Source of the DNA: Hyphomicrobiales bacterium
Lineage (GTDB): Bacteria; Pseudomonadota; Alphaproteobacteria; Rhizobiales; Aestuariivirgaceae
Length of the DNA stretch: 56,732 nucleotides
NCBI GenBank assembly: GCA_016185245.1
Contig: JACPNZ010000050.1
Coordinates: 1 to 56,732 of the forward strand
Direction of reading: 5' to 3'
Shown here: in pieces, positions 6,849 to 22,521 of the stretch
Layout of the letters: every line of letters starts with the position of its first letter
Position numbering within the stretch: the stretch's first letter is position 1
Translations under genes and position numbers: made by a program
Notes under the pieces: generated by a model
Told to the model about the DNA's origin: nothing
The model's input: the letters and a program-made list of their open reading frames with translations, nothing else
Databases searched by the model: none

Positions 6849-6925
6849 CGGAGTGTAGCGCAGTCTGGTAGCGCACCTGCTTCGGGAGCAGGGGGTCGGA
6901 GGTTCGAATCCTCTCACTCCGACCA
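6849..6925 (+). tRNA. tRNA-Pro (anticodon CGG)
   Basis: The cloverleaf is complete. The acceptor stem pairs CGGAGTG (6849-6855) with CACTCCG (6915-6921). The anticodon arm CCTGC-TTCGGGA-GCAGG gives anticodon CGG. The T arm contains GTTCGAATC. Encoded A plus CCA closes the 3' end at 6925. Confidence 0.95.
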
Positions 6926-6960: not shown

Positions 6961-7035
6961 TGGGGCGTAGCCAAGCGGTAAGGCAGCGGATTTTGATTCC
7001 GCCATTCGGAGGTTCGATCCCTCCCGCCCCAGCCA
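6961..7035 (+). tRNA. tRNA-Gln (anticodon TTG), island attachment gene
   Basis: The cloverleaf is complete. TGGGGCG (6961-6967) pairs with CGCCCCA (7025-7031). The anticodon arm GCGGA-TTTTGAT-TCCGC gives TTG. The T arm is GGAGG-TTCGATC-CCTCC, with G plus encoded CCA to 7035. The 3' half from 6988 is repeated at 21639-21686, so this gene is the integration site of the adjacent island and its 3' half was restored by the incoming DNA. Confidence 0.95.
6988..7035 (+). repeat. Island attachment repeat, tRNA side (attL)
   Basis: These 48 bases run from the anticodon arm to the CCA end of tRNA-Gln and recur at 21639-21686, same orientation, without gaps and with three substitutions. Homology stops sharply on both sides: before the GGATTTTG in the anticodon arm, and after CCA. 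This is the expected shape of a tyrosine-recombinase attachment duplication. Confidence 0.85.
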
Positions 7036-7073
7036 ATCCCTTCCATTGAAGTGATTGGTATTTCCGCTCCTGC

Positions 7074-7301
7074 TCATTCGATTGTCCTTTCCGGTTTGAT
7101 ACTTTTTTTAGATAGTTTGACAACTCTTGTGCGCCGTCTGTTCACTTCGGCTTCGCGATTCGTGACAACTGCCATGAGCTTCCGGGTGCGGTCTGCCCGA
7201 CGTGAGTAGTGGCGGGCCATCTCGATAGTCTTCTGGCCCAGAATGTCCGCATAACTATGTCGCGCCCACGTATCGATGAGAGAGCAGCAGTTATGCGTCA
7301 T
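7074..7301 (-). pseudogene. Tyrosine recombinase (integrase), C-terminal remnant
   Basis: A 75-codon frame preserves the end of a phage-type integrase. ADILGQKTIEMARHYSRRAD corresponds to the LGH-x-IEMARHYSR block that contains the catalytic Tyr. It is followed by the tail RTRKLMAVVTNREAEVNRRR. The His of the LGH(K) element is Gln here, and everything upstream (core Arg, HxxR box, N-terminal arm-binding domain) is missing. It reads towards tRNA-Gln and lies directly inside the island edge, the usual place for the integrase. It is surely inactive. Confidence 0.82.
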
Positions 7302-7649
7302 TCCACCATCTTTGAGTGGGTGTCGTCATGCATGTAGCTGGGCAGCGTCATAGGCCGCGAGCAAAAATGGCCCCACAATTGCTTGCGGGGCCATATCGGC
7401 GAGGTGCTCGCAGAACGGGCCGCTCCGGGGGGGGTGGGGGGGAAGTGGAGGGTCGCGTCCTTAGCAGGGGGAATGAAGCCCCTCACTGTTGCTATCCTGG
7501 GCGGCAATGCCCATGAATACTGTATCCGATTGCACAGCCGGTGCTGAAAGAATGGGGTCTAGTTTATTCATTGCCGATTCGTGCATCATCTGGGCCGCGG
7601 CAGCTGAGAGACATGATTTGCACTCCCGCTCGAACATTGGGAGAGTTTC
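7302..7649. other. Degenerate DNA between integrase remnant and first island gene
   Basis: No intact gene is visible. On the minus strand a short open stretch at about 7330-7410 encodes EHLADMAPQAIVGPFLLA and ends after YDAAQLHA; it has no start codon and looks like the tail of a lost protein. The remainder, including a G-rich run near 7427-7450, shows nothing I can identify. Confidence 0.35.
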
Positions 7650-7856
7650 ATGTACCAGTCCTCAATTTCACTGATTCAAGATCGCGTCGGAGAAGAGCTG
7701 ACATCGGGTTGCGTGGTTGACGTCTACCGCCTGGCATCAGCAGTCCGTGCCGACTGTCCTGAACTTACTCACAAAGATGTGGTGAAGGCGATCGAATGGG
7801 ATAGAAGGCTGGCGTATCAGTCTCCCCGCAATGCCCATGCTGGCCTAGACCGATAA
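7650..7856 (+). CDS. Hypothetical small protein
   Basis: This 68-residue protein is not recognised. The first 50 residues (MYQSSISLIQDRVGEELTSG, then DVYRLASAVRADCPELTHKD) look like a real helical protein, and a purine-rich TTGGGAGAG precedes the ATG. The last 15 residues (DRRLAYQSPRNAHAGLDR) are of poorer quality, so the gene may be cut short compared with its relatives. It lies in the island with no close neighbour on the same strand. Confidence 0.45.
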   Translation: MYQSSISLIQDRVGEELTSGCVVDVYRLASAVRADCPELTHKDVVKAIEWDRRLAYQSPRNAHAGLDR

Positions 7857-8061
7857 CTGCTTCCCCGCCCAGACCAGCTACCCGGCACAGGGTGGCCCCG
7901 CCGTGTAGCCTCTAACTCGCGGGCGCAGTCAAATAAACATGGAACAAGGCCGATGGGTTCCCCATATCGGACGCATAGACTCGTAGGGCCAGAGCTATTG
8001 GTTCGGGTTGATGCCGTCCCCGCACCTCGCGTTCGGGATATAAACGCAAGGAGAATCCCCA

Positions 8062-8166
8062 ATGAAGTCTACCATGACGCGCTCAGCGCTGGTCATCGGC
8101 GCGCTTGTGCTCTCGGCTGCTGCTGCTCAAGCTGCTACGGCGCCGGCGGTATGTGGCACATCGTAA
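8062..8166 (+). CDS. Short secreted peptide, 34 residues
   Basis: A good ribosome site, AAGGAGA at 8048-8054, precedes ATG 8062 by 7 bp. The peptide is nearly all signal sequence: MKSTMTRSALVIGALVLSAA, then AAQAATAPAVCGTS and stop. After predicted cleavage only about 10 residues remain. It may be the surviving start of a longer exported protein or a genuine small peptide. A strong hairpin (8193-8221) follows 27 bp later and would fit as its terminator, which supports transcription. Confidence 0.4.
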   Translation: MKSTMTRSALVIGALVLSAAAAQAATAPAVCGTS

Positions 8167-8192
8167 CGCCGACTTATTGACTTATGAAAACC

Positions 8193-8221
8193 GCAGCCGG
8201 GAATAATCGGTTCCCGGCTGC
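8193..8221. terminator. Perfect 11-bp hairpin, probable terminator
   Basis: GCAGCCGGGAA (8193-8203) pairs perfectly with TTCCCGGCTGC (8211-8221) around a 7-base loop. On the plus strand no U-run follows; on the minus strand the stem is followed by GGTTTTC. It sits just after the small secreted peptide gene and could stop transcription in either direction. Confidence 0.5.
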
Positions 8222-8313
8222 AACCAACCATACTTGCCGGACACGATTGGTACCAGTCACGACACTCTGTGGCCCGACCTCGCGCTGCCGGTAAACACCA
8301 AAGGGAGAGAAAC

Positions 8314-8688
8314 ATGCGTCTGGTCGCGTTTATCGGTGCAATGGTCGCGGGTTTGGGGCTCCTTGGCACGGTAGGATATGCTGGCGGCGCCGGTCTCGAC
8401 GGGAGGTCGATCAAGCAGCTGTTTCCCGGCTACTTCGAAGCCCAAGTGCAAGGCTATCGGGTGGAATTCACTGGCTCCGGCAATGGCACCCTGCAGGGCA
8501 TTGCCTATGGACGCCAGGATCAGGGCCGCTGGTTTGTGAAGGGCAACAGTCTTTGCGTCTCCTGGAAGCAGTGGACCAAGGGTCAGGCGAAATGCGGTTT
8601 GATCTCCCAGCAGGGCGGCTGGTTTGTGGCGAGCGCCGGGGGCAAAGAGGTGTTGAAGTTTCGCCGGTCGATGCTGGCTCAGCAATAG
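8314..8688 (+). CDS. Small exported protein of unknown function
   Basis: The 124-residue protein has an N-terminal signal sequence (MRLVAFIGAMVAGLGLLG, probable cleavage after GYAGG). Its mature part reads KQLFPGYFEAQVQGYRVEF, then GQGRW-like DQGRWFVKGNSLCVSW, and ends KFRRSMLAQQ. The pattern of a glycine-rich beta scaffold with two Cys and repeated GRW/GGW turns resembles DUF995-like periplasmic proteins of rhizobia, but I cannot confirm the family. AAGGGAGAG before ATG 8314 fixes the start. The longer frame from 8269 has no ribosome site. Confidence 0.65.
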   Translation: MRLVAFIGAMVAGLGLLGTVGYAGGAGLDGRSIKQLFPGYFEAQVQGYRVEFTGSGNGTLQGIAYGRQDQGRWFVKGNSLCVSWKQWTKGQAKCGLISQQGGWFVASAGGKEVLKFRRSMLAQQ

Positions 8689-8922
8689 TAGCCGCGTGAA
8701 GCGATCGGTTTTGTCCTCATCGCCTCCGGACAGCCTTGGATCTGGCACATTCGCGGCCCCGGTGTCGGACGGCCATAGATAAAACCGTCGCGCAATCCGG
8801 CAATTGAGGATCGGGGCTTCTGGCAGAGCTACACCACTGCCGGGGACACGATCCGGCGGATTCTAAAATCCGTGCAGAAACAATCAGATCGGCCGGCGCC
8901 GCTTCGCATCCATCTCGGTTTT

Positions 8923-9063
8923 CTATTTCTTCTTGCCCGCCGAAGAGCCTGCCGTAGGCTTCGGCTGCATCACTCCAAATGAAGTAGCTGTGATTATCGG
9001 CTTGGCTTTTTGCTGCTTCGGCTTCTTCGCTTCACGATTGCTTCTTTGGTGACCTTTAGACAT
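8923..9063 (-). CDS. Small basic protein, 46 residues
   Basis: A Lys/Gln-rich peptide: MSKGHQRSNREAKKPKQQKA, then a short neutral centre and a KKK end. Very similar small proteins of unknown role (MSKGQQRSNREAKKPK type) occur in many rhizobial genomes, as I recall. AGAGGAGA lies at ideal distance before the ATG at 9063. The charge suggests nucleic-acid or ribosome association, but that is only inference. Confidence 0.65.
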   Translation of the reverse strand: MSKGHQRSNREAKKPKQQKAKPIITATSFGVMQPKPTAGSSAGKKK

Positions 9064-9147
9064 ACGAATTCTCCTCTGCCTGGATTTGCGCTAATTGATA
9101 TTCTGCAAGGATGAACCGAGCCATTCAGCTGTCGAAACAGCGGCCCG

Positions 9148-9327
9148 TCATGCAGGGCCAGGCAAAAGCGCGGTTTGCCCGACTATCGGATCGGTCTGGT
9201 TTTTGCCGATGATCGTGATGTTGGCGGCCGCCGAAAGTCCAGCCGGAGTCAAGTTGTAACTGGGTCTGACAAAGCCGCCAGCGGAGAGGAAGATCATCGT
9301 CAGGGCGAAGGTGGCCAGTAATCTCAT
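9148..9327 (-). CDS. Small exported protein, 59 residues
   Basis: A signal sequence (MRLLATFALTMIFLSAGG) is followed by a roughly 40-residue mature part containing NLTPAGLSAAANITIIGKN and ending LLPGPA. The ATG at 9327 has AAGGAGAG at correct spacing, so translation is likely. No family is recognised. It lies in the island between the small basic protein gene and a 485-bp gap. Confidence 0.5.
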   Translation of the reverse strand: MRLLATFALTMIFLSAGGFVRPSYNLTPAGLSAAANITIIGKNQTDPIVGQTALLPGPA

Positions 9328-9812
9328 CGATACTCTCCTTTCAAGAGAGCGCTTTCCAGCCGGCGCCAATGGCGACGGCACACAGATACGCTCGATCGGA
9401 ATGGGGTACGGTCGGACTTGACATCGAGGACCGATGCGCGCTGCCGCTTATGGTCCCAGCCCGGCGGGCCGAAAACTACGCCGCTGCGACCGGCGCCGAA
9501 CACTCAGGTGCAGGGGCAACGTTATCATTGCCGTCCCAGCGCGGCTTGCAATCGGCGGATTTCGGTACCAGGCGGAGTTTTGCGACCTTCGGAACTGCAA
9601 GCAATATACCCATCGCGGTTTCCATTGAGTCCGACGCTGCCCTGGCCCGAGCGGACCAAAGATCGTGCACAAAGATAGCGCAACCGTTCACGGAACCGGA
9701 CACCCCGATCTGCCGTCGCGCCACTTCGAGAATGCCATGAACCGAGTTTGGCTCATATGGGAACGAATGCTGGCTTTACAAGGCGATTTTTTAGCCGACT
9801 GTCAACACCGCG
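9328..9812. other. 485-bp island gap, no gene seen
   Basis: Several overlapping frames are open in both directions, but none has a ribosome site, a plausible amino-acid pattern or a recognisable domain. They overlap each other across strands. I see no repeat or RNA gene in it. Confidence 0.4.
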
Positions 9813-10079
9813 CTATGCGAAGTCCGTGTGTGTCAAGGTATAGGATCCTTCGCGCCGCCTGCCATAGACCATCTCGGCGACCTTGCAGATGCGGTCCCGA
9901 TGACGATCGAAAGCCTCAAGCAGACCCGACTCGCCGGCCAGCGCGCTCCCAGCCAAGCGCCGGATTACATCCTCTTCCACGAAGAATGGCCGTTCGAGGG
10001 CACCGTCATAGCCCGAAAAACGGACACAATGTCTGGTTGCATCATATCTGCGGCTGGGATTGGGAAACTCGATGGTCAT
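9813..10079 (-). CDS. DUF1488 family protein
   Basis: The 88-residue protein starts MTIEFPNPSRRYDATRHCVR and continues with FSGYDGALERPFFVEED, which is the DUF1488 pattern. It ends in AEMVYGRRREGSYTLTHTDF, also typical. Function is unknown; these proteins are abundant in rhizobia, frequently on plasmids and islands. Length is normal (about 85-95 residues). Confidence 0.78.
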   Translation of the reverse strand: MTIEFPNPSRRYDATRHCVRFSGYDGALERPFFVEEDVIRRLAGSALAGESGLLEAFDRHRDRICKVAEMVYGRRREGSYTLTHTDFA

Positions 10080-10144
10080 GCCAAACTATGACACATTCGC
10101 GGCCATGGTGCAGCAAAACCGGACACTGGTCCCAGTTGCAGAAC

Positions 10145-10318
10145 TCACCGCTCCTTAAGCGTGTCTTTGATGCCACCGACGACATTCCGAATTTTGCCTT
10201 CAGCAATCTCCGCCTTGCCCTCCGATTGCAGCTTGGCATCGCCGATTGCCCTTCCCAGCGCCTGCTTCACTGCGCCCTTCACCTGCTTCGCCGAACCGGA
10301 GACCCGATTCTTATCCAT
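10145..10318 (-). CDS. CsbD family stress protein
   Basis: The 57-residue protein begins MDKNRVSGSAKQVKGAVKQA, continues LGRAIGDAKLQSEGKAEIAE and ends KIRNVVGGIKDTLKER. This is the CsbD-like pattern of general-stress, hydrophilin-like small proteins. AGGAGAA lies 9 bp before ATG 10318. Its presence beside the DUF1488 and DUF3309 genes gives this part of the island a stress-response flavour. Exact role is unknown. Confidence 0.85.
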   Translation of the reverse strand: MDKNRVSGSAKQVKGAVKQALGRAIGDAKLQSEGKAEIAEGKIRNVVGGIKDTLKER

Positions 10319-10527
10319 GACAGTATTCTCCTAGGCGTTGTCGATATTGTTGATCCCGGAGGCGAAACACGGTAAAATTCAGCAAATCGTTTCGCGGCCG
10401 AGGTTGGTTAAAGTATGGTGGAACAGCCTGCTGCGGTCTGGTCAAAATCGCTCATAGCCGGGCATTCGGGGCGGTCAATTTTCTGCCGTGCCGCTATGCA
10501 ATTATCCCGACTCCGAAAGGCCACGTC

Positions 10528-11259
10528 ATGGTTATGCTACCCGAGGCCAGATTTGATCCCATAGCCTTTCTCGCCAAGGTTGGCGAGGGCCGGAGCATCA
10601 CCAAGTACGGCAAGGACCAGACTGTGTTCTTCCAGGGAGAGGCGGCGGATGCGGTATTCTACGTCCAGCGCGGCAAGGTCAAGATCACGGTCGTTTCGGA
10701 ACAAGGCAAAGAGGCCGTGGTGGCAATTCTGGATGACGCCAAATTCTTCGGCGAGGGGTGCCTCGCCGGGCAGGCACAACGTATCTCCAGCGCCGCCACA
10801 ATGGCAGCCTCCGTCATCGTGAGGATTGAGAAAGCGGCAATTGTGCGGGTGATCCACGAGGAACCGACATTTTCCGAGATGTTCATCGCTCACCTCCTCA
10901 GCCGTGCCATACGCATCGAGTCGGACCTCGTCGATCAGTTGTTCAATTCAAGCGAGAAACGGCTGGCGCGGCTGCTCCTGTTGTTGGCCAACTTCGGCAA
11001 GGACGGAAAAACCGAGCCGATAATCGCCAAGATCAGCCAGGAGACACTTGCGGAAATGATTGGAACAACGAGGTCGCGCGTAAGCTTCTTCATGAATAAA
11101 TTTCAAATTTCGCAAGTTGGGTTTCATCGACTACGACGACCACATCGTTGTCCACAGCTCATTGCTGAATGTGGTGCTGCACGATCAGTCGTACATCGAG
11201 TCAGCAAAGCAGGAAGCCGAGACGCTGTCGGACGATCGTGCCGAGTAGCTTCCCGATGA
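10528..11259 (+). CDS. Crp/Fnr family regulator with frameshifted C-terminus
   Basis: The 243-residue reading has a cyclic-nucleotide-binding-like domain (residues about 20-130, with GKDQTVFFQGEAADAVFYVQ and AILDDAKFFGEGCLAG). A Crp-type helix-turn-helix follows (ISQETLAEMIGTTRSRVSFF, about 170-190). There is no N-terminal Cys cluster, so it is not an oxygen-sensing FNR. A tandem 7-bp duplication at 11098-11111 shifts the frame at about residue 192. Without it the protein would read FRKLGFIDYDDHIVVHSSLL and stop at 11246-11248 after 237 residues, the normal end for this family. The present tail of about 50 residues looks like random translation. The wing of the DNA-binding domain is therefore lost. 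A sequencing error is possible but less likely for a clean 7-bp repeat. Confidence 0.8.
   Translation: MVMLPEARFDPIAFLAKVGEGRSITKYGKDQTVFFQGEAADAVFYVQRGKVKITVVSEQGKEAVVAILDDAKFFGEGCLAGQAQRISSAATMAASVIVRIEKAAIVRVIHEEPTFSEMFIAHLLSRAIRIESDLVDQLFNSSEKRLARLLLLLANFGKDGKTEPIIAKISQETLAEMIGTTRSRVSFFMNKFQISQVGFHRLRRPHRCPQLIAECGAARSVVHRVSKAGSRDAVGRSCRVASR
11098..11111 (+). repeat. 7-bp tandem duplication causing a frameshift
   Basis: AAATTTC occurs twice in direct succession (11098-11104 and 11105-11111). Removing either copy joins the two halves of the Crp/Fnr gene into one continuous, family-like reading frame. Confidence 0.85.
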
Positions 11260-11387
11260 GTGCTGTGGCGATTGCCGAATTGCCGAACTGGTCGCCGGTG
11301 TGGGCGCCGCCCGTAGCCAACCGATACGGCTTACAAGGTGGTTTTCGGCATGAAGGCAGAAACGGCTCGTTCACCGAGCTTTGCGGA

Positions 11388-11552
11388 TCAGATGCGCCCA
11401 AGCAACATGAGAATGACAACGACGATCAGGATGGTGCCAAGCACGCCTACGCCACTATGACCGAAGCCATAGCCGTAGCCGCCGAAACGGCCGCTGAAGC
11501 CACCGAGAAGGAAGATGATGAGGATGATAACCAGAATTACGCTGAGTGACAT
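11388..11552 (-). CDS. DUF3309 family small membrane protein
   Basis: The 54-residue protein has two hydrophobic segments (MSLSVILVIILIIFLLGGF and ILIVVVILMLLGRI) around a Gly/Tyr-rich loop (GRFGGYGYGFGHSGVGVLG). This is the DUF3309 pattern, common in rhizobia and often linked to stress genes. The ATG at 11552 is preceded by AAGGACGG. On the plus strand the same DNA is open but shows only a low-complexity shadow. Confidence 0.82.
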   Translation of the reverse strand: MSLSVILVIILIIFLLGGFSGRFGGYGYGFGHSGVGVLGTILIVVVILMLLGRI

Positions 11553-11985
11553 GACTGCCGTCCTTTTCCGACGTGCAAATGTGATTGTCCCCGGTCACCC
11601 CTAGTGAAGCCGATCGGTGCGAGAACTATCGCGCCTGCGGCAGCACCTATCAGTGCCGGTTTCAAATTCGATTGCGTGTCGCCTTTCAAAGCAGGCGGGA
11701 ACGCTATTTGCCCGGGATTCGGCGAAAACTTACGGCATCCATAGGGGACGCGCTGAGCAAAACTGCTCATCACGACACCGAATTACGCCGATCGACCGCT
11801 TAACGGGCGTAATTATTCCAGCGAGCCCTCTACCATTTTCCCGTTTCAATGCCATATAGAGGCGGGCCGCGCCGCACTCGCCTTTGCAGCAGGCTGGTTC
11901 ATCGCTGCAGTATCACTCTCTCCGTTTCAAGCGGTGCGCCGTCCCAAAAATCTTCAGGCGGCCAAGCCGCGCCGGAAAGGTACCA
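11553..11985. other. Region upstream of the glucan synthase; protein relic
   Basis: No intact gene is seen. On the minus strand about 11600-11690 encodes SNLKPALIGAAAGAIVLAPI followed by GFTRG. It resembles the start of a small rhizobial membrane protein (NLKPALWGA...GFTWGGW) but has neither a start codon at the right place nor the expected end; I take it as a relic. The rest would hold the promoter of the glucan synthase, but I could not identify a convincing one. Confidence 0.35.
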
Positions 11986-14900
11986 ATGTGGGCGCTCTTT
12001 CGCCGTATTTTCCCGCGCACCCCTACCCCATCTCCGTGGGACAATCAGGAACCTGTGCGCGAAGAGTTGTTCAGCATCGAGCGGCTCGAAGAGCATGCCC
12101 GCAGTCTTGCCGTGGCGCAGACGGTCGAGCCGAAATCGCTCAAGGGCCGGCAACTGGCAGGACGCCTCGCCGACAACGGCGAGGTCCTACTCGGTGCATT
12201 TCGCAGTACGGTTGCCGCGATCGACGAAGGACGCAGCATTACTCCGGCGGCCGAGTGGCTGGTCGACAACTATCACCTGATCGAGAAGCAGATCCGCGAG
12301 ATCCAGTCGGACTTGCCATCGGGCTACTATCGCCAGCTACCAAAACTTTCCGCTGGTCCTTTCGCGGGATATCCGCGGGTGTTCGGCATCGCATGGGGCT
12401 TCGTTGCCCATACCGACAGCCGATTCGATTCCGCCGTGCTGTTGCGTTACCTCCGGGCTTATCAGGAGGTACAGCCACTCACCATTGGCGAATTGTGGGC
12501 GATATCGATCACGCTGCGGATTGTGCTGATCGAGAATTTGCGACGGCTGGCCCAACAGATCGTGCAGGGCCGCGCCGCCCGGCAAATGGCAGATCGTCTC
12601 GCGGATCGCCTGTTGGGCACCAGTGGGCAGGTCGCCGTGCGTTTCGAGCATGCGCTAGATGAGTTTCAGAGCGGAGCATTGCCGGAAGCATTCGCGGTCC
12701 AGCTCGTGCACCGGCTTCGCGACCAGGACCCGGGGATCACCCCCGCTTTGAATTGGCTCGACCGGCGCCTCGCGGCGCAGGAGACGACGGCCGACAAGGT
12801 TGTGCGCGACGTGCACGGGAGGCAAGGTGCTTCCAACGTTTCGGTTCGCAATATCATCACCAGCCTTCGCCTCATTTCCGATGTCGACTGGAAGGATCTC
12901 TTTGAAGCCAGCAGTCTTGTCGATGAAGCCCTCGGCGAAGGCAGTCGCTTCAAGGACATGGATTTTCCGACCCGCAATCTCTATCGCGGCGCCATTGAAC
13001 AGTTGGCGCGGGGGTCGGAGCAAAGCGAAATGGAAATCGCGCGCGCTGCGATCCAGGCCGTCAAGAACGGCCAGCAAGTGGAACCCGCGTCGAATGACGA
13101 GCGCTTGGCCGACCCGGGATATTATCTCCTCGCCGGAGGTCGCGATCGATTCGCGGCAAGGATTGGCTATCGCCGGCCGGTGCGAGCCTGGCTGGCACGG
13201 TTCAACCGCGTCGCCGGCATCAGCGGATATGCGTCCGCCATTGGGCTTGCCACCGCGCTTCTTCTTGCGGTTCCTCTTATGGTTCTCGCGCAATTCGGCG
13301 TCGGTTGGACTGCCTTGAGCCTCCTCGGCATTTTGGGCTTGATCCCGGCAATCGATGCGGCTGTGGCACTGATCAATCGCGCCGTGAGCCTCGGCTTCCA
13401 GCCGAATCTGCTGCCGGCGCTGGAGTTGCGCAACGGCATCCCAGATCATCTGCGGACGCTGGTTGCCGTGCCAACGATGCTCACCAGTGCCGCGGCCATA
13501 GAGGAGCAGGTCGAGCGGCTCGAGATCCATCATCTCGCCAGTCCGGGCGACAATCTGCATTTCGCGTTGCTCTCGGACTGGACCGATGCGGTGGCGGAAC
13601 ATGCCGCGGACGACGACGCGCTCCTCTCTGTGGCGGCGGAGGGCATTGCCCGGCTCAACCAGCGCTATGGCCGGGCGCGCGGAGGTTACCGGTTCCTGTT
13701 GTTGCATCGCCGGAGAGTCTGGGCCGAAAGCGAAGCGCGCTGGATCGGTTGGGAGCGCAAGCGCGGCAAGCTCCATGAACTAAACCGCCTGTTGCGTGGC
13801 GCAACCGACACAAGTTTCATCGATGTCAACCGGGCACCACCGCAACCGCCCGCCAACATCCGCTATGTCGTGACGCTCGATGCCGATACGCGGCTGCCGC
13901 GCGACACGATTCTCCGGCTTATTGGAAAAATGGCGCACCCTTTGAACCGTCCGCGCTTCGATGCGACCGCGGGTCGGGTGGTGGACGGCTACGCCGTGTT
14001 ACAGCCGCGGGTAACGCCGTCCCTGCCTGTAGGCCGCGAAGGCTCACTGTTTCAGCGTATCTTCTCAAGTCTGAGCGGCATCGATCCCTATGCGTCGGCG
14101 GTGTCCGACGTCTACCAGGACATGTTTGGCGAAGGCTCTTATGCTGGCAAGGGCATTTACGACGTCGACGTCTTCGAGGCCTCTCTGGCGGGCCGCGTGC
14201 CACAGTCGACGCTGCTGAGCCACGATCTCTTCGAGGGCGTGTTCGCCAGAGCCGGCCTCGCTTCCGATGTCGAAGTCGTCGAGGAGTACCCCGCGCGCTA
14301 TGACGTGGGCGCGATGCGCCACCACCGCTGGGCGCGCGGTGACTGGCAGCTCTTGCCATGGATCCTGGGACGCATTGCGTCGCCCGTCGGAGCAACCCCG
14401 GCCTTCGGCGCGATACCGGCTATCGGGCGCTGGAAGATGCTCGACAATCTGCGCCGCACCCTATCGGCGCCCTTTGCCATTCTCGCCTTGCTCGCCGGGT
14501 GGGCGATGCCGCTTGAAGCCGCTCTCGTTTGGACCATCTTTGTTGTCTCGACGATTGTGCTGCCGACGATGATCCCCGTCGTTGCCGCGGTTCCGCCGCG
14601 CCGTGCAGGCGTCACCGCCGCCAGCCATATGCGCGCATTGGGCGGTGATTTCCGCCTCGCCCTCACCCTGTCGATGCTCGTCATCGCCTTTCTCGCACAC
14701 CAGGCCTGGCTGATGGGCGATGCGATCGTACGCACCATGCATCGCCTCTTGGTCACCCGCCGCCTGATGCTCGAATGGGTTCCCGCCGCGCAGGCTGCGA
14801 CGGGCCGCAGTCTCGATATTCCGAGCTTCTACCGCCGGATGGCGGGAGCGCTGGTCATCGCGGCCGCAGCAATTCTTGTCGCATTGGTTTCGCGCCACGG

Positions 14901-17900
14901 AACATGGCTTTTGGCCGCGCCGTTCGCAGCGCTCTGGTTCGCCTCGCCCGCCGTAGCCTTGCTGATCAGCTTGCCGCCGCGTCTGGCGGGACAGGTCGCG
15001 GTGGGTGAAGCGGACGCGCGTGCGTTGCGGCTTACGGCGCGTCGCACTTGGCGATTCTTCGAAAGCTTCGTGACCCCCGCCGACAACATGCTGCCACCCG
15101 ATAATTTCCAGGAAGATCCGGTACCAGTGCTGGCGCACCGGACCTCGCCGACCAATCTCGGGCTCTATCTCCTGTCGGTCGCAAGCGCCCGCGATTTCGG
15201 ATGGATCGGCACCGGCGACGCCGTCGCGCGGCTGGAAGCGACATTCGCAACGATGAACGGCCTCGAGCGCTTCCGGGGCCATTTCTACAACTGGTACGAC
15301 ACGCGCGATCGGCGCCCGCTTGATCCGCGTTACGTTTCCGCCGTCGACAGCGGCAATCTGGCGGGGCACCTCATTGCCCTCGCCAATACCTGCCGCGAAT
15401 GGCGTGGTTCGTCACCCGCTGTTCAACCGCGCCTCGACGGGCTGGCCGACGCCATCGATCTCGCGCGCGCGGAAGCGGCCCTCCTGCGCGATGGGCCACG
15501 TACCCAGACGGTGACATGGCACCAGCTCGACAGTGCGCTTGCCGCACTCGCCTCGGATGCGCGGCAGCCGACAGCGGATCCGGGTGGCTTCGCGCAGCAT
15601 CTGGCCGCAGTTTCCAACCAAGCCAATGTCATGGCCGACATCGCCCTCGCGCTGGCGACCGAAAGAGGCGGCGGCACCGGCACGGATTTGCTTTACTGGG
15701 TGCACGCGCTTACCGCATCGATTGACGGGCATCGCCGCGATTTCGCGCTTGGCGCGGACGAAACGGTGGCCTTGGACGCACGTCTTCTCGCACTCGAAAC
15801 GGCTGCGCGGTCGATGGCTATGGCCATGGATTTCGGCTTTTTGCTCGACCCCGACCGCATGCTGTTGTCGATCGGCTATCTGGTGCCGGAAGGCAAGCTC
15901 GACACCAACTGCTACGATCTGCTGGCTTCCGAAGCGAGGCTCGCCAGCTTCTTCGCTATCGCCAAGAGCGACGCTCCAGCCCGCCACTGGTTCCGGCTCG
16001 GCCGCTCGGTCACACCGGTTGCCCATGCCGCAGCTCTGATCTCCTGGTCGGGATCGATGTTCGAATATCTGATGCCTGCGCTGGTCATGCGCGCTCCGGC
16101 CGGGAGTCTTCTCGAACAGACAAGCCGGCTCATCGTGCGCCGCCAGATCGACTATGCTGCGGGACTCAACCTCCCGTGGGGTATTTCGGAGTCCGCCTAT
16201 AACGCCCGCGATCTTGAACTAACCTACCAATATTCGAACTTCGGGGTTCCCGGCCTCGGGCTCAAACGTGGGCTCGCCGAAAACCGCGTTGTTGCGCCCT
16301 ATGCGACAGCCCTTGCTGCCATGGTCGATCCGGCTGCCGCAACCGCCAATTTGAGTCGGCTTGCAGCGGAAGGCGGGCTTGGACGGCATGGCTTCTACGA
16401 GGCGCTTGACTACACAGCGTCCCGCCTGCCCGAGGGCAAAAAAGTGGTCACTGTCAAAGCTTTCATGGCGCATCATCAGGGCATGACCATCGTCGCCATC
16501 GCCGACACTCTTTTCGATGGCAGGATGCGGGCCAGATTCCATGCCGAACCCATTGTGCAGGCAACTGAACTTCTGTTGCAGGAACGCATGCCCCGCGACG
16601 TTTCGGTGGCACGGCCTTGGGCATCGGAAGTGAAATCGGGTGCCAGGGCCCGGGATGCCGAGGCCTCCGGCGGCCGTAGGTTCTCATCGGCAAATCAGGC
16701 GGCACCCCCCACCCACCTGCTCTCGAACGGTCGCTACGCCACGATGGTGACGGCCGCCGGTTCCGGTTACAGCCGTTGGGGTGATCGCGCCCTGACGCGC
16801 TGGCGCGAGGACGCAACATCGGACGACCATGGCTCTTACATCTTCCTGCGAGATGTGCGCAGCGGTGTCGTTTGGTCGGCGGGCTTTCAGCCAAGCGGCG
16901 CGGCGCCCGATGACTACACTGTCGTGTTCAACGAAGATCGCGCCGAGTTCACGCGGCAGGACGGAACGCTGACGACGGTATTGGATATCCTGGTTTCGGC
17001 CGAGGATAATGCCGAGGTCCGCCGCGTCTCGATTTTGAACAGCGGCAGCCGCATGCGGGAAATCGATGTAACGTCCTATGCCGAAGTCGTGCTGGCGCCA
17101 CAGGCCGACGACGTGGCGCACCCCGCCTTTTCCAAGCTCTTCGTCGAGACGGAATATCTCGTGGATGTCGGTGCGATTCTGGCGACACGGCGGAAACGCT
17201 CACCTTCGGACCTGGCAATCTGGGCCGGGCATCTGGCCGTAGTCGACGGCGAAACCGCGGGCCAAGTCGAAATCGAAACCGACAGGGCCCGCTTCCTGGG
17301 CCGTGGCCATGGTATCCGAACCCCCATTTCCATCATGGATGGGCGGGCCCTCTCCAACACGGTGGGCACCGTTCTCGACCCGATTTTTGCATTGCGCCGG
17401 CGGATGCAGATAGCCCCCGGAGCCACGGCGCGCATCGCCTTCTGGACGATGGCGGCTGCGACCCGCGAGGAATTGCTCGACTGTGTCGACAAACACCGGG
17501 ACACCACCGCCTACAGCCGCGCGGCGACGCTTGCCTGGACGCAAGCGCAGGTGCAGCTCCATCATCTCGGCATCACGGCGGGTGATGCCGCTCTCTTCCA
17601 GCGCCTTGCGGGACATGTGATCCATGCTTCGCCTGCACTACGCCCGTCCTCGGACACGATTGTTCGGGGCGGCGGCCCGCAGTCGGGGCTCTGGGCCCTG
17701 GGTATTTCCGGCGATCTGCCGATTGTGCTGTTGCGCATCAGCGATACCGAGAATCTCGATGTCGCCCGCGAACTTCTGCAAGCCCACGAATACTGGCGAC
17801 TGAAGCAGCTCGCTGTCGATCTGGTGATCCTCAACGAACGGCAATCCTCCTATGTGCAGGATCTCCAGATTGCACTTGAAACGCTGGTGCGCACCCTGCA

Positions 17901-20580
17901 GTCCCGGCCGCAGGCGAGCGGAGAAAGCCCTCAGGGTAGCGTCTTCGTGCAGCGTGCCGACCTTATTCCCGGAGAGACGCGGGCGCTTCTTGCCTCCGTG
18001 GCACGGATCGTACTGGTTGCACAACGCGGCAATCTGTTCGATCAACTTGACCGGATCGCGGAAACAAGCTTGGCCGCGAGACCATTGCCAAAGCGTGTTT
18101 TCACCAGTCCGGCGCCGGTGACACCACCGTCGTTGCCGGACCTCGAGTTCTTCAACGGGCTTGGGGGCTTTGCCGATGATGGCAAAGAATATTTGACGAT
18201 TCTCGGACCTGGCCAATCGACGCCGGCACCCTGGATCAATGTCATCGCCAACCCCACTTTTGGTTTTCAGGTGGCGGCGGAAGGCGGTGGCTACAGCTGG
18301 TCCGTCAACAGCCGGGAGCGCCAGCTGACGCCCTGGTCGAACGATCCGGTCACCGATCGTCCTGGCGAGGCATTCTATCTGCGTGACGAGGATACCGGTG
18401 CTTTCTGGAGCCCGACAGCACTTCCCGTCCGAGACGAGTTGGGAGTCTATCTGACCCGTCATGGCCGGGGATACAGCCGCTTCGAGCATGCAGCCCACGG
18501 CATCACCGCCAACCTGCTGCAATATGTGCCGCTCGACGCTTCGATCAAGATATCGCGTTTGGTGCTTCACAATCGTACGACCCGCACCCGCCATCTCAGC
18601 GTAACGGCCTATGTAGAATGGGTACTCGGCCAATCACGCTCGGCATCGCATCCCTTCGTGACGACGGCAATCGATCCCGCGACCGGTGCGATGTTTGCCC
18701 GGAACCCGTGGAACGGGGATTTCGGAACACGCGTTGCATTTGCCGACTTGCGCGGACGTCAGACAGACTGGACCGGCGACCGCCGCGAATTCATTGGGCG
18801 CAATGGAACGCTGAAGGATCCGGCGGCTCTGGCAAATACCGTTGCGCTCTCCAAGATCGTCGGCGCCGGCCTCGACCCTTGCGGCGCCATGCGCACCACA
18901 GTTGAACTCGCGCCCAACGCCAGTGTCGAAGTCGTTTTCTTCCTTGGCGAGGGCAAAAATGCGGACGAGGCGCGATCCCTGATCGACCAATACCGCGCCG
19001 CCAATCTTGATGCGGTGTTGAGCGCCGTCACGCGCCATTGGGACCATGTGCTGGGTGCGGTCCAGGTGAAGACGCCTGACCGGACGATGGACATCATGCT
19101 CAATGGTTGGCTTCTCTATCAGACGCTCGCCTGCCGCATCTGGGCGCGGTCGGGCTTCTACCAGTCGAGCGGGGCTTACGGTTTCCGCGACCAGTTGCAA
19201 GACGGTATGGCGCTCGCCGCCACCCAGCCGATGATAACGCGTGAACATCTCCTCCGAGCGGCGGCACGGCAATTCGTCGAAGGCGATTTCCAGCATTGGT
19301 GGCTTCCGCATTCGGGTCAAGGGGTGCGCACCCGCATCTCCGATGATCGTGCCTGGCTGGCATATGCCGTTAGCCACTATGTTGCCGCAACAGCCGATGC
19401 CGGCGTTCTTGATGAATCCATTCCCTTTCTCGAAGGCCAAAGATTGAACCTTCAAGAACATGACAGTTTCTTCGATCCGGTGGTTTCCGACCAGACCGCG
19501 ACCCTCTTCGAGCATTGCGCCCTGGCGCTTGACCATAGTCTCGCGGTTGGCCGGCACGGCCTGCCATTGATCGGCACCGGCGACTGGAACGACGGCATGA
19601 ACCGCGTCGGCGAAAACGGCGAGGGCGAGAGCGTGTGGCTCGGTTGGTTCCTGTACGCAACACTCATGGCCTTTGCGCCGATAGCCGAAGCGCGCCGCGA
19701 AACGGCCCGCGCGGAACGCTGGCTTACTCACGCGGCAGCATTGCAGTCCTCGCTAGCCGGCGAGGCATGGGACGGCGAGTGGTACCGAAGAGGGTTCTAC
19801 GACGACGGCACCGTGCTCGGCTCCGCTCAGAGCGAGGAATGCCGGATCGACTCCATAGCCCAGTCGTGGGCGGTACTCTCGGGAGCGTCGGAACCGAAAC
19901 GGATGGCGCGCGCCATGGAATCACTCGAGCGCGAACTGATCAATCCCAAGGACAAGCTCGCCCTCTTGTTTACACCACCCTTCGACAAGACGTCACTCGA
20001 TCCCGGTTACATCAAAGGCTATCCGCCGGGCATTCGAGAAAACGGCGGTCAATATACTCACGCTGCCCTGTGGTCGGTGATGGCGTTGGCTGAACTCGGC
20101 CAGGGCGACAGGGCCGGAGCCCTGTTTTCGCTGCTCAACCCAATCAATCATGCGCGCACCAGAGCGGACGTGCACCGCTACAAGGTAGAGCCCTATGTCG
20201 CCGCCGCCGACATCTATGCCGAACCACCTCACATGGGCCGCGGGGGTTGGACGTGGTACACCGGCTCGGCCGGCTGGATGCAGCGGGCCGGTATCGAAAG
20301 CATCCTCGGTTTACGCATGCACGGCTCAGTGCTGCGTATCGATCCGTGCATCCCACACTCCTGGAGTTCTTTCGAAGTCGATCTTCGCTATCGCTCGTCG
20401 CACTACCGGATTCACGTCGCCAATCCCGATGGTGTCAATCGGGATATCGCTGCCGCGCGGATCGACGGAGCACCTCTCATCGAGCTCGAGCGCCCCCTTC
20501 GCCTGGCGATGATTGACGACGGCCTGGTCCATCACGTCCACGTTACGCTTGGATGTCCGCAATTGGCGGCCGTCGCGTGA
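11986..20580 (+). CDS. ndvB: Cyclic beta-1,2-glucan synthase (NdvB/ChvB/Cgs)
   Basis: This intact 2,864-residue inner-membrane enzyme uses UDP-glucose to build and close cyclic beta-1,2-glucans, periplasmic osmolytes needed for host interaction in rhizobia, Agrobacterium and Brucella. An N-terminal region (1-400) precedes membrane segments near 410-470. The GT84 glycosyltransferase domain (about 475-820) has the processive-transferase motifs DAD (632-634) and RHHRW (778-782). More membrane segments follow at about 826-930 and 950-1005. The C-terminal half holds two glycoside-phosphorylase-type beta domains (near 1579 and 2100) and a GH94 catalytic domain with GTGDWNDG at about 2530-2537, which controls ring size. 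ATG 11986 is preferred because GGAAAGG lies upstream and MWALFRRIFP starts the family-like sequence; the longer TTG start at 11884 is less likely. No ndvA exporter gene is near. It lies inside the tRNA-Gln island. Confidence 0.95.
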   Translation: MWALFRRIFPRTPTPSPWDNQEPVREELFSIERLEEHARSLAVAQTVEPKSLKGRQLAGRLADNGEVLLGAFRSTVAAIDEGRSITPAAEWLVDNYHLIEKQIREIQSDLPSGYYRQLPKLSAGPFAGYPRVFGIAWGFVAHTDSRFDSAVLLRYLRAYQEVQPLTIGELWAISITLRIVLIENLRRLAQQIVQGRAARQMADRLADRLLGTSGQVAVRFEHALDEFQSGALPEAFAVQLVHRLRDQDPGITPALNWLDRRLAAQETTADKVVRDVHGRQGASNVSVRNIITSLRLISDVDWKDLFEASSLVDEALGEGSRFKDMDFPTRNLYRGAIEQLARGSEQSEMEIARAAIQAVKNGQQVEPASNDERLADPGYYLLAGGRDRFAARIGYRRPVRAWLARFNRVAGISGYASAIGLATALLLAVPLMVLAQFGVGWTALSLLGILGLIPAIDAAVALINRAVSLGFQPNLLPALELRNGIPDHLRTLVAVPTMLTSAAAIEEQVERLEIHHLASPGDNLHFALLSDWTDAVAEHAADDDALLSVAAEGIARLNQRYGRARGGYRFLLLHRRRVWAESEARWIGWERKRGKLHELNRLLRGATDTSFIDVNRAPPQPPANIRYVVTLDADTRLPRDTILRLIGKMAHPLNRPRFDATAGRVVDGYAVLQPRVTPSLPVGREGSLFQRIFSSLSGIDPYASAVSDVYQDMFGEGSYAGKGIYDVDVFEASLAGRVPQSTLLSHDLFEGVFARAGLASDVEVVEEYPARYDVGAMRHHRWARGDWQLLPWILGRIASPVGATPAFGAIPAIGRWKMLDNLRRTLSAPFAILALLAGWAMPLEAALVWTIFVVSTIVLPTMIPVVAAVPPRRAGVTAASHMRALGGDFRLALTLSMLVIAFLAHQAWLMGDAIVRTMHRLLVTRRLMLEWVPAAQAATGRSLDIPSFYRRMAGALVIAAAAILVALVSRHGTWLLAAPFAALWFASPAVALLISLPPRLAGQVAVGEADARALRLTARRTWRFFESFVTPADNMLPPDNFQEDPVPVLAHRTSPTNLGLYLLSVASARDFGWIGTGDAVARLEATFATMNGLERFRGHFYNWYDTRDRRPLDPRYVSAVDSGNLAGHLIALANTCREWRGSSPAVQPRLDGLADAIDLARAEAALLRDGPRTQTVTWHQLDSALAALASDARQPTADPGGFAQHLAAVSNQANVMADIALALATERGGGTGTDLLYWVHALTASIDGHRRDFALGADETVALDARLLALETAARSMAMAMDFGFLLDPDRMLLSIGYLVPEGKLDTNCYDLLASEARLASFFAIAKSDAPARHWFRLGRSVTPVAHAAALISWSGSMFEYLMPALVMRAPAGSLLEQTSRLIVRRQIDYAAGLNLPWGISESAYNARDLELTYQYSNFGVPGLGLKRGLAENRVVAPYATALAAMVDPAAATANLSRLAAEGGLGRHGFYEALDYTASRLPEGKKVVTVKAFMAHHQGMTIVAIADTLFDGRMRARFHAEPIVQATELLLQERMPRDVSVARPWASEVKSGARARDAEASGGRRFSSANQAAPPTHLLSNGRYATMVTAAGSGYSRWGDRALTRWREDATSDDHGSYIFLRDVRSGVVWSAGFQPSGAAPDDYTVVFNEDRAEFTRQDGTLTTVLDILVSAEDNAEVRRVSILNSGSRMREIDVTSYAEVVLAPQADDVAHPAFSKLFVETEYLVDVGAILATRRKRSPSDLAIWAGHLAVVDGETAGQVEIETDRARFLGRGHGIRTPISIMDGRALSNTVGTVLDPIFALRRRMQIAPGATARIAFWTMAAATREELLDCVDKHRDTTAYSRAATLAWTQAQVQLHHLGITAGDAALFQRLAGHVIHASPALRPSSDTIVRGGGPQSGLWALGISGDLPIVLLRISDTENLDVARELLQAHEYWRLKQLAVDLVILNERQSSYVQDLQIALETLVRTLQSRPQASGESPQGSVFVQRADLIPGETRALLASVARIVLVAQRGNLFDQLDRIAETSLAARPLPKRVFTSPAPVTPPSLPDLEFFNGLGGFADDGKEYLTILGPGQSTPAPWINVIANPTFGFQVAAEGGGYSWSVNSRERQLTPWSNDPVTDRPGEAFYLRDEDTGAFWSPTALPVRDELGVYLTRHGRGYSRFEHAAHGITANLLQYVPLDASIKISRLVLHNRTTRTRHLSVTAYVEWVLGQSRSASHPFVTTAIDPATGAMFARNPWNGDFGTRVAFADLRGRQTDWTGDRREFIGRNGTLKDPAALANTVALSKIVGAGLDPCGAMRTTVELAPNASVEVVFFLGEGKNADEARSLIDQYRAANLDAVLSAVTRHWDHVLGAVQVKTPDRTMDIMLNGWLLYQTLACRIWARSGFYQSSGAYGFRDQLQDGMALAATQPMITREHLLRAAARQFVEGDFQHWWLPHSGQGVRTRISDDRAWLAYAVSHYVAATADAGVLDESIPFLEGQRLNLQEHDSFFDPVVSDQTATLFEHCALALDHSLAVGRHGLPLIGTGDWNDGMNRVGENGEGESVWLGWFLYATLMAFAPIAEARRETARAERWLTHAAALQSSLAGEAWDGEWYRRGFYDDGTVLGSAQSEECRIDSIAQSWAVLSGASEPKRMARAMESLERELINPKDKLALLFTPPFDKTSLDPGYIKGYPPGIRENGGQYTHAALWSVMALAELGQGDRAGALFSLLNPINHARTRADVHRYKVEPYVAAADIYAEPPHMGRGGWTWYTGSAGWMQRAGIESILGLRMHGSVLRIDPCIPHSWSSFEVDLRYRSSHYRIHVANPDGVNRDIAAARIDGAPLIELERPLRLAMIDDGLVHHVHVTLGCPQLAAVA

Positions 20581-20745
20581 GACTCCCAACATCATGAAAT
20601 TCAAGCGATCACAACGACCCATGCCGAGCCCCTCAAAACCGTCGAATTCCCGGTACCGCGCCTCGGCGGTCTGTCAGCGGCCGCCCACAGTGTCACCGGT
20701 TCCGAGCACGACGGCAAATTCGTTGATGGACTATCGGAAGCAACC

Positions 20746-21474
20746 ATGACTATCCAATTCGACTACGGCATACTCGATGCGTTCAATGCACGGTCTCCTT
20801 CCATGGATGAGCGACAGCAGATCTTCGACCTCTGGTGCGAGATCGCGAATTTGGATCAATACGTCCGGAAGTTCGATCACATTCTGAAGTTGTATCGTTT
20901 TGCAAGAGACGAAAGTCGTATCCGCATCGCCGCCGCGAACGAACGGCGCAATGAGATTGCGGGAGTGGGGCGCGACGCACCGGAGGCAAGCGAACTCCTG
21001 GCGCAATGTCGGATACTGGAAAAGGACGCGATGATGTATCGGTCGTGGACCCACATTGCGGCGCGTGACGGCGCAATGACAATCTATCATCTTTGCCACA
21101 GGATGATGACGATTTGGTCGAAGATGCAGTGCTGCAGTCTATTCGACGCGAGTAAGGTCGGGGTTACAAAGGAGCTTGCCGAGCGACAGTTCGCACGTGC
21201 GTTTCCGGCATTTGTGACGATCCGGAATTCCATGACCGGTCTGGCGGACAATGCAGCGCCGCCGCTGCATGTCGACTGCTGTCCCATCGAAACGGCTTAC
21301 TTCAAATCCGATGTGGGTCTGTCGCTATTTTTTGGAGGAAGTCTTGAAGGCGATACATTTCAGGTCGCCTTCGACACCCACATTCACGGCTATGATCTAT
21401 ACGAAGAGTCCCTATACGCACTTCAAGAGCTGCTAAATCTCATCAGGAAGTCATTTATTGACGACAAGAAATAG
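20746..21474 (+). CDS. Hypothetical protein, 242 residues, distal end of island
   Basis: I do not recognise this protein. It is soluble and helical with many Met, Cys and aromatic residues. Distinct stretches are MDERQQIFDLWCEIANLDQY, AFPAFVTIRNSMTGLADNAA and VGLSLFFGGSLEGDTFQVAF. The central pattern of long helices followed by R-N-S/A and a C-terminal beta segment is loosely reminiscent of HEPN-like or DUF-type rhizobial proteins, but this is too weak to name. The frame is open back to the glucan synthase stop (51 further codons) but without a start codon, so ATG 20746 is used. It is the last gene before the right attachment repeat. Confidence 0.6.
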   Translation: MTIQFDYGILDAFNARSPSMDERQQIFDLWCEIANLDQYVRKFDHILKLYRFARDESRIRIAAANERRNEIAGVGRDAPEASELLAQCRILEKDAMMYRSWTHIAARDGAMTIYHLCHRMMTIWSKMQCCSLFDASKVGVTKELAERQFARAFPAFVTIRNSMTGLADNAAPPLHVDCCPIETAYFKSDVGLSLFFGGSLEGDTFQVAFDTHIHGYDLYEESLYALQELLNLIRKSFIDDKK

Positions 21475-21638
21475 TCTGCGAGCGCAGAGATCTGGTGGAG
21501 AAAATCGAACAGTTGAATCCCGTTGGGGGAGTCCCGTCGGGCTTTCAGCATGCGAGTCTGGCGCATGCGCACTGGAATTTCGGCAAGAGGTTTGACACGT
21601 TCGCCGGGATAAGCCGTTGAATTGACCGAATTGGAAGG

Positions 21639-21686
21639 GGATTTTGATTCCGCCATTCGGAAGTCCGATCCCTCCCACCCCAGCCA
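21639..21686 (+). repeat. Island attachment repeat, distal (attR): partial tRNA-Gln
   Basis: This copy matches tRNA-Gln 6988-7035 with a constant offset of 14,651 and three substitutions at 21662, 21665 and 21677, all in the T arm or acceptor strand. They break T-arm pairing, so the copy has drifted free of selection. It contains only the 3' half and cannot make a tRNA. It ends 13 bp before the panB-like gene. Confidence 0.85.
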
Positions 21687-21698
21687 GTCTCCGGCGGC

Positions 21699-22511
21699 TT
21701 ACTTTTTCTTGGTCTCGGCCTTCAGCTGCTTCATGAAGGCGCCGAACTCGCGGTCCTCGATCGGCACCAGGTGCTTGGCTTCCGGATAGGCGCCGGTCTC
21801 GACGTCGCTGCGGTATTCCTTGAAGGCGGCGATGCGCTCTTTCTGCAGCCGGTCGTATTCGGCGCGGAAATTGCGGTAGACCTTGGCGTGGCGGGGCCGG
21901 TGCCCGCGGGTGTAACCCAGCACATCCTCGGCGAAGAGATATTGCGCATCGCCCCCGGTGCCCGCCCCCATCGACAACATGACGAGGGACGTGCGCCGGG
22001 AAATCTCCGCCGCCACCCGGTCCGGCACCACTTCGAGCTCGGCGCCGATGGCGCCTGCCGCCTCGAGCTGTTTGACATGGCGGAAGACATTCATGGCACT
22101 GTCGGCCGTCTTGCCCACCGCCTTGAAGCCGCCGGTCCAGGTCGCCTTGGAGGGAATGAGGCCGACATGGCTGATGATCGGAATGCCCTCGGCCGACAGC
22201 CTGGCGATGGTATCGAGGCTCGCCGCGCAATAGCAGCAGTCGCCGCCCTTCACCACCGCCGCATGGGCGGCGCGCAGATAGTCCTCGTAGGTGCACAGTT
22301 CGCCATAGAGCAGGCCCACCTGGACGAAGCAATTGCCGGCCGCCTCGCGCATCGCCGGCGTCCACACCGGATCGATGATCGATAGCATGTCGATGCCGGC
22401 GGCACTGGCCGCCGCCGCTTCCTCGGGCGTATCGACGAACAGCATGGTGAGCTGCCGCTTGCCCTTCTGGGCCCGGAGATCGGCGACGGTCATGCGCTTG
22501 TTGCGGGACAT
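21699..22511 (-). CDS. Ketopantoate hydroxymethyltransferase (PanB)-like aldolase
   Basis: The 270-residue TIM-barrel protein belongs to the PEP mutase/isocitrate lyase superfamily in the PanB branch. It has ISHVGLIPSK where PanB has GHLGLTPQ, and AELEVVPDRVAAEIS in place of MELVP. The N-terminal metal motif is altered (IIDPVWT instead of VGDSLG). It is therefore probably a catabolic relative, not the pantothenate enzyme. It follows the broken sugar isomerase gene by 10 bp in the same direction, with AGAGGAAG before ATG 22511. A retro-aldol cleavage of a keto acid derived from the local sugar pathway is a reasonable guess. Confidence 0.72.
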   Translation of the reverse strand: MSRNKRMTVADLRAQKGKRQLTMLFVDTPEEAAAASAAGIDMLSIIDPVWTPAMREAAGNCFVQVGLLYGELCTYEDYLRAAHAAVVKGGDCCYCAASLDTIARLSAEGIPIISHVGLIPSKATWTGGFKAVGKTADSAMNVFRHVKQLEAAGAIGAELEVVPDRVAAEISRRTSLVMLSMGAGTGGDAQYLFAEDVLGYTRGHRPRHAKVYRNFRAEYDRLQKERIAAFKEYRSDVETGAYPEAKHLVPIEDREFGAFMKQLKAETKKK

Positions 22512-22521
22512 GGCTTCCTCT

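Follow-up and report, generated by a model that had tools for sequence, protein, structure and literature searches.

The window analysed here is the whole stretch of 56,732 nucleotides from a 140,613-bp contig of a draft Hyphomicrobiales assembly (58 contigs, 3.5 Mb). A complete tRNA-Gln gene in this window is followed by the remnant of a tyrosine integrase, a series of small genes, a very large gene of the cyclic beta-1,2-glucan synthase (Cgs) type and a second copy of the 3' part of the tRNA gene, beyond which a PanB-like gene is encoded (Table 1). A complete tRNA gene with a cognate 3' fragment downstream, in the same orientation and reaching the 3' end, is among the Islander criteria for a tDNA island, and this arrangement is present here. 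The resulting element spans positions 7036–21686 and measures 14,651 bp, in agreement with the 14.65 kb of the original prediction, which was made from the sequence alone.

Table 1. Features of the tRNA-Gln locus, in positions of the window (G013 and G004 are two other genomes of the genus).
Feature	Position	Strand	Basis
tRNA-Gln (TTG), proposed regenerated target gene; last 48 nt are attL	6961..7035	+	ARAGORN; repeat
attL, left attachment copy, anticodon region to CCA end	6988..7035	+	Repeat comparison, pattern search, repeat finder
Tyrosine integrase C-terminal relic, reads towards tRNA-Gln	7074..7319	-	Similarity to G013 and G004
68-aa ORF	7650..7856	+	No family match
124-aa ORF, signal-peptide-like N-terminus (by eye)	8314..8688	+	No family match
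46-aa basic ORF	8923..9063	-	Short similar stretches (20–30 aa) in 3 of 100 other loci
DUF1488 protein, 88 aa	9813..10079	-	PF07369, E 2e-18
CsbD-like protein, 57 aa	10145..10318	-	PF05532, E 1.9e-16
Crp/Fnr-type regulator, apparently frame-broken near C-terminal end	10528..11259	+	PF00027, PF13545; frames by eye
DUF3309 small protein, 54 aa	11388..11552	-	PF11752, E 4.4e-9
Cyclic beta-1,2-glucan synthase (Cgs/NdvB/ChvB type), 2898-aa mechanical ORF, stop-free	11884..20580	+	Pfam GH94 and glucoamylase domains; PDB 8rf0
242-aa ORF	20746..21474	+	No family match; 0 of 36 other genus genomes
attR, right attachment copy, displaced 3' part of tRNA-Gln, 3 substitutions	21639..21686	+	Repeat comparison, pattern search, repeat finder
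PanB-like (ketopantoate hydroxymethyltransferase family), first gene outside island, stop codon 12 bp from repeat	21699..22517	-	PF02548

Direct comparison, a repeat finder and a pattern search all confirmed that the 3' half of tRNA-Gln recurs downstream without a gap and with sharp ends, as the two copies were identical at 45 of 48 bases and only scattered matches were found beyond the repeat ends. The pair was the top repeat family of the repeat finder, which with its looser ends reported 57 nt at 89% and a spacing of 14,651. The best other direct-strand 48-mer on the contig reached 29/48, while the reverse complement and a reversed-sequence control peaked at 26/48. A pattern search of the assembly, with two free positions and up to three mismatches, found sequences of this type at these two places only and none in the reversed control. 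The right copy is located 12 bp past the stop codon of the PanB-like gene, so that, as judged from this frame, it is not part of a conserved protein domain. The same pattern was present in 31 of the 37 genus genomes including this one, and in all 30 others the tRNA copy agreed with attL at both attR-variant positions included in the pattern, indicating that attR is the drifted copy. The copy at 21.6 kb would thus be the one released from selection, as expected for a displaced fragment.

The integrase C-terminus that had been placed just inside the left end, reading towards the tRNA, was recovered as a minus-strand open frame with its stop codon 38 bp from the tRNA-Gln 3' end. Over 65 aa the relic is 52% identical to the C-terminal end of a G013 integrase (357 aa, PF00589), and among the 37 genus genomes the 81-aa query matched only itself, G013 and G004. 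These two matches carry its identification as an integrase, since no Pfam integrase model matched the relic on its own. About the C-terminal quarter of the protein is left and the N-terminal part is gone, with frames upstream interrupted by stops and no further integrase pieces in the island edges searched (best other match E 0.82). The Arg of the G013 integrase RHT motif, which we take to be the catalytic Arg of tyrosine recombinases, is aligned with Thr in the relic. No relaxase, conjugation or phage structural families were found in the island ORFs scanned, and the reduced integrase together with this lack of transfer and packaging families does not fit a mobile element that is still active, be it an ICE, IME, prophage or satellite. 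A phage origin of the integrase was also considered and rejected, as the search returned a single distant viral contig at 25% identity.

The one full-length match to the relic in the genus, the G013 integrase, adjoins a tRNA-Phe gene, with its stop codon 72 bp from the tRNA 3' end and an exact 50-bp repeat (the last 48 tRNA-Phe bases plus 2) 16,046 bp downstream. The GC content of this element is 0.592 in comparison to 0.629 and 0.637 outside, and it is phage-like, with genes for portal, protease, capsid, terminase and tape-measure proteins and for a replication initiator. At 16 kb (about 55.0–71.1 kb of G013:C8, loci L102 / L236) it is small for a full prophage and is possibly a capsid-forming satellite. 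The G013 element and the island have the same attachment geometry, with a 48-nt tRNA span, and related integrases, whereas none of the portal, protease, capsid, terminase or tape-measure genes of the 16-kb element was recognised among the scanned ORFs of the island. That a small satellite of the G013 kind lost its phage genes and turned into a permanent carrier of an envelope-stress cassette around Cgs is conceivable but very unlikely.

Integrase matches at E ≤1e-40 were found in 14 of 297 genomes of the order. Eight of these adjoin a tRNA 3' end and all eight read towards it (Arg cct twice, Phe three times, Met twice and Gln ctg once), with 74–130 bp between the tRNA 3' end and the end of the aligned integrase part; five of the other six had no tRNA in the approximately 1.5 kb of flank examined and the sixth had a tRNA-His about 1.1 kb off. 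G004 possesses a relic of the same integrase type directly behind tRNA-Gln, and a second tRNA-Gln fragment was not found on its 39.8-kb contig. Site-specific integration into tRNA-Gln, as the original prediction had proposed, is well supported by the displaced fragment, the integrase relic and the geometry of the G013 element. An origin of the second fragment by chance or as a duplication by-product, unrelated to integration, would be in keeping with a non-functional integrase and with the empty site not having been seen, but we regard it as scarcely credible in view of 45/48 identities against a background maximum of 29/48, the same 48-nt span in the G013 element and an integrase relic in the canonical position.

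The corresponding site was located in 30 of the 36 other genus genomes, comprising 29 with the tRNA called and one (G033) with a cut tRNA; G005, G006, G008, G021, G022 and G029 dropped out of the empty-site search, and at least 500 bp (0.5 to 70 kb) could be read in 27. An empty site, in which tRNA-Gln leads to the right-flank PanB-like gene, was seen in none of these 27 relatives, and the right boundary is for this reason placed by the repeat alone. Behind tRNA-Gln in the 27 relatives (E up to 0.001), island proteins had two matches only, the integrase relic of G004 and, in G032, a weak one to Crp at a distance of 24.8 kb. A second tRNA-Gln fragment was not found in the stretches read. The outcome that would have contradicted an island, namely relatives all carrying the 7.0–21.7 kb genes in the same place, was thus not observed in this set.

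On the left, 19 of the 22 relatives compared have a bioY homologue in the locus of tRNA-Pro or tRNA-Gln, and DNA similarity stopped by the metallo-hydrolase gene, about two genes from tRNA-Gln, apart from one 0.5-kb similar stretch in G031. On the right, a comparison of contig ORFs of at least 120 aa identified only four with ≥52% identity over 100 aa behind tRNA-Gln in relatives, all located right of 62 kb and forming no shared block. PanB-like genes at 40–65% identity occur elsewhere in at least 22 of the 36 other genus genomes. The region behind tRNA-Gln is highly variable in the genus, as no linked ORF group was shared by more than 8 of 29 genomes compared, some of which had little sequence, and the group reaching eight was a transporter-type gene (type assigned by eye) that matches in many places.

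This variability could be interpreted as the 14.65 kb being one unit of a larger variable block, with tRNA-Gln serving as an integration hotspot, the genes beyond 21.7 kb being acquired too and the true chromosomal right flank lying further on. The DNA behind tRNA-Gln does differ widely among the genus members read, nothing behind tRNA-Gln in relatives is syntenic with the part of the contig (C33) beyond 21.7 kb, and recombinase genes or relics occupy the same spot in G033 and G004. We nevertheless consider a larger block unlikely, as the assembly contains a single tRNA-Gln 3' fragment besides the gene, the GC content of the right flank is ordinary, and the loss of similarity after about two genes on the left as well suggests that synteny loss is general in the genus.

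Several other features of this site were recorded in the genus. In G033:C62 (L075, 15765-15806 on), tRNA-Gln breaks off in the anticodon region, its first 42 nt being followed by DNA that opens with a resolvase of 199 aa (PF00239) and an ORF of 428 aa; the 3' half of the tRNA was not found elsewhere in this 99% complete assembly, which reflects either an assembly gap or a split essential tRNA. The gene block directly behind tRNA-Gln in G011 and G012 lies about 3.2 kb further off in G034 (L078 vs L073, L081), and this offset suggests another insertion at the same tRNA-Gln. The tRNA-Pro gene at 6849-6925 is on the same strand as tRNA-Gln here and on the opposite strand in 18/18 relatives with both genes called, which points to a small inversion in this lineage.

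The glucan synthase of the island aligned almost end to end with the solved cyclic beta-1,2-glucan synthases 8rf0 and 8rf9, with residues 53–2846 corresponding to residues 20–2804 of 8rf0; its true start may lie further in than that of the mechanical ORF. No NCBIfam model matched, and its assignment as a Cgs follows from a protein of about 2800 aa with glucoamylase-like and GH94 domains that is collinear with the solved enzymes. The product would probably be an osmoprotective, envelope-modifying periplasmic glucan. Cgs matches were found in 20 of 37 genus genomes, with this one and fragments counted, as well as in 3 of a further 24 genomes of the order. The original view that everything between the repeats is accessory holds for the location of these genes, with the qualification that Cgs as a gene is this widespread in the genus and that 11 of the 15 genus copies in the tree described next are of another lineage.

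A query-anchored tree of 97 Cgs sequences (residues 561–2130), which included 15 of the 20 matching genus genomes and left out G003, G007, G008, G026 and G029, placed the island Cgs together with those of G010, G027 and G021 in one group with a support of 1.0. The neighbours of this group of four are Methylocystis, Rhodoblastus and Xanthobacter-type sequences, and a separate group is formed by 11 other Cgs of the genus. Support is low at the nodes immediately surrounding the four (0.588 and 0.058) and reaches 0.995 for the 14 sequences around them. Plasmid-borne relatives reach 70.7% identity (Methylocystis). Based on these relationships horizontal movement of this Cgs type is likely, and the gene either came with the island or was already present in the four-species group. 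A survey for comparable Cgs islands at tRNAs elsewhere did not extend the case, as a tRNA was present in 3 of 80 Cgs loci and a displaced fragment in none, many of these loci being cut short by contig ends.

Base composition varied within the island, where overall GC content was 0.602 in comparison to 0.563 without the glucan synthase and 0.628 for the glucan synthase itself, with 0.663 in the left flank and 0.634 in the right part of the contig. The 4.85-kb left part of the island had a GC content of 0.568, just under the lowest (0.570) of 229 equal right-hand windows, which overlap and are not independent (mean 0.634, sd 0.025); elsewhere on the contig, individual 1-kb windows reach the same or a lower value around 117, 124 and 132 kb. 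GC3 values were 0.630 for the Crp-like gene, 0.620 for the 242-aa ORF and 0.717 for the glucan synthase, in comparison to a mean of 0.751 (sd 0.104) for 94 long non-overlapping ORFs outside, a contrast that is suggestive only. The low GC content of the island edges speaks for an island, and that of the glucan synthase, which is hardly different from the right flank, speaks against it.

The contrast between the edges (0.563) and Cgs (0.628) may also indicate a composite, in which the element provided only the low-GC edges (7.0–11.9 and 20.6–21.7 kb) and Cgs was inserted or replaced element genes later. Cgs is absent throughout G013, the genome whose phage-like element carries the related integrase, and a weak inverted pair of 24 nt (79% complementary, 10911-10934 / 20759-20782) brackets the gene. 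Such a composite is a tentative possibility that we do not favour, as no strong direct or inverted repeat other than the attachment pair surrounds Cgs, no transposase family was found in the island ORFs scanned and the edges may simply have decayed.

The small CsbD, DUF1488 and DUF3309 genes belong to families often tied to stress, and the C-terminal residues of the Crp/Fnr-type regulator seem by eye to run on in another frame. A defence role for the 242-aa ORF was rejected, with no PADLOC, PHROG, Pfam, NCBIfam or plasmid match. The idea of a Crp-CsbD-DUF cassette travelling with Cgs as a general unit was also abandoned, as companion genes are rare near Cgs elsewhere: tblastn over 100 loci, 88 of which hold Cgs, detected DUF1488 in nine, CsbD in three, the 46-aa ORF in three and DUF3309 in one, and the island-type Crp and the 242-aa ORF in none. 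In 11 of 80 loci (L140, L147, L151, L169, L174, L175, L179, L191, L193, L195 and L209), a Crp/Fnr regulator of the type found on the Pseudomonas aeruginosa element pKLC102 was encoded no more than 5 kb from the glucan synthase, with 12 matches in 603 kb near Cgs vs 4 Crp matches, counting both query types, in the more distant 514 kb. This suggests a recurring regulator-synthase pairing, and the island's own Crp is of another type.

In summary, the unique repeat, the integrase relic, the G013 geometry and the position of 8 of 14 integrase kin beside a tRNA lead us to conclude with high confidence that the locus is an aged, immobile tDNA island at tRNA-Gln whose Cgs cargo has persisted. An integrative element with a tyrosine integrase, and an attachment site carrying the last 48 nt of the tRNA-Gln gene, would have recombined with the chromosomal tRNA-Gln(TTG), the crossover presumably falling in the anticodon region. 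The element's own copy would have regenerated the tRNA at the left end, while the original 3' part of the host gene was pushed 14.65 kb away and came to differ by three substitutions. The element would then have become fixed as its integrase was reduced and the RHT-motif Arg replaced, leaving as cargo the full-length Cgs, the small CsbD, DUF1488 and DUF3309 genes and the apparently broken Crp/Fnr regulator. The order of these events is our reconstruction from what was observed directly, namely the repeats, the relic, the relative of the same geometry, the identity of the cargo and the position of Cgs in the tree.

The locus is a clean example of an island integrated at a tRNA gene, the mechanism of which is illustrated by a relative from the genus. 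It adds evidence that islands and plasmids carry Cgs from one bacterium to another, so that presence of the gene need not reflect ancestry; no general view is changed by it. The Islander report (PMC4383910) describes exactly such a signature, and 2083 of its 3919 islands have an anticodon-centred site. The present island resembles these in its tRNA gene with a same-orientation displaced 3' fragment, the position of its integrase relic inside the island beside the tRNA, its attachment span starting in the anticodon region and its 14,651 bp, within the 2–200 kb length range, but differs in that its integrase is a relic and the island is no longer mobile. A Cgs is similarly found in putative transferred regions of clinical Herbaspirillum seropedicae, likewise as an acquired large gene, with tRNA attachment not described in the part of that report consulted (PMC6679464). 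The chvB glucan synthase has been reported on pKLC102, a mobile island/plasmid of P. aeruginosa (NC_019202.1; PMC4696338), which shares with the present island a full-length Cgs (55% identical) and a Crp/Fnr gene about 1.3 kb from it. It differs in being 103.5 kb long and typed as conjugative, and its Crp/Fnr is 21% identical to that of the island. The locus is thus an ordinary kind of genomic island, and Cgs on mobile islands was already known from pKLC102.
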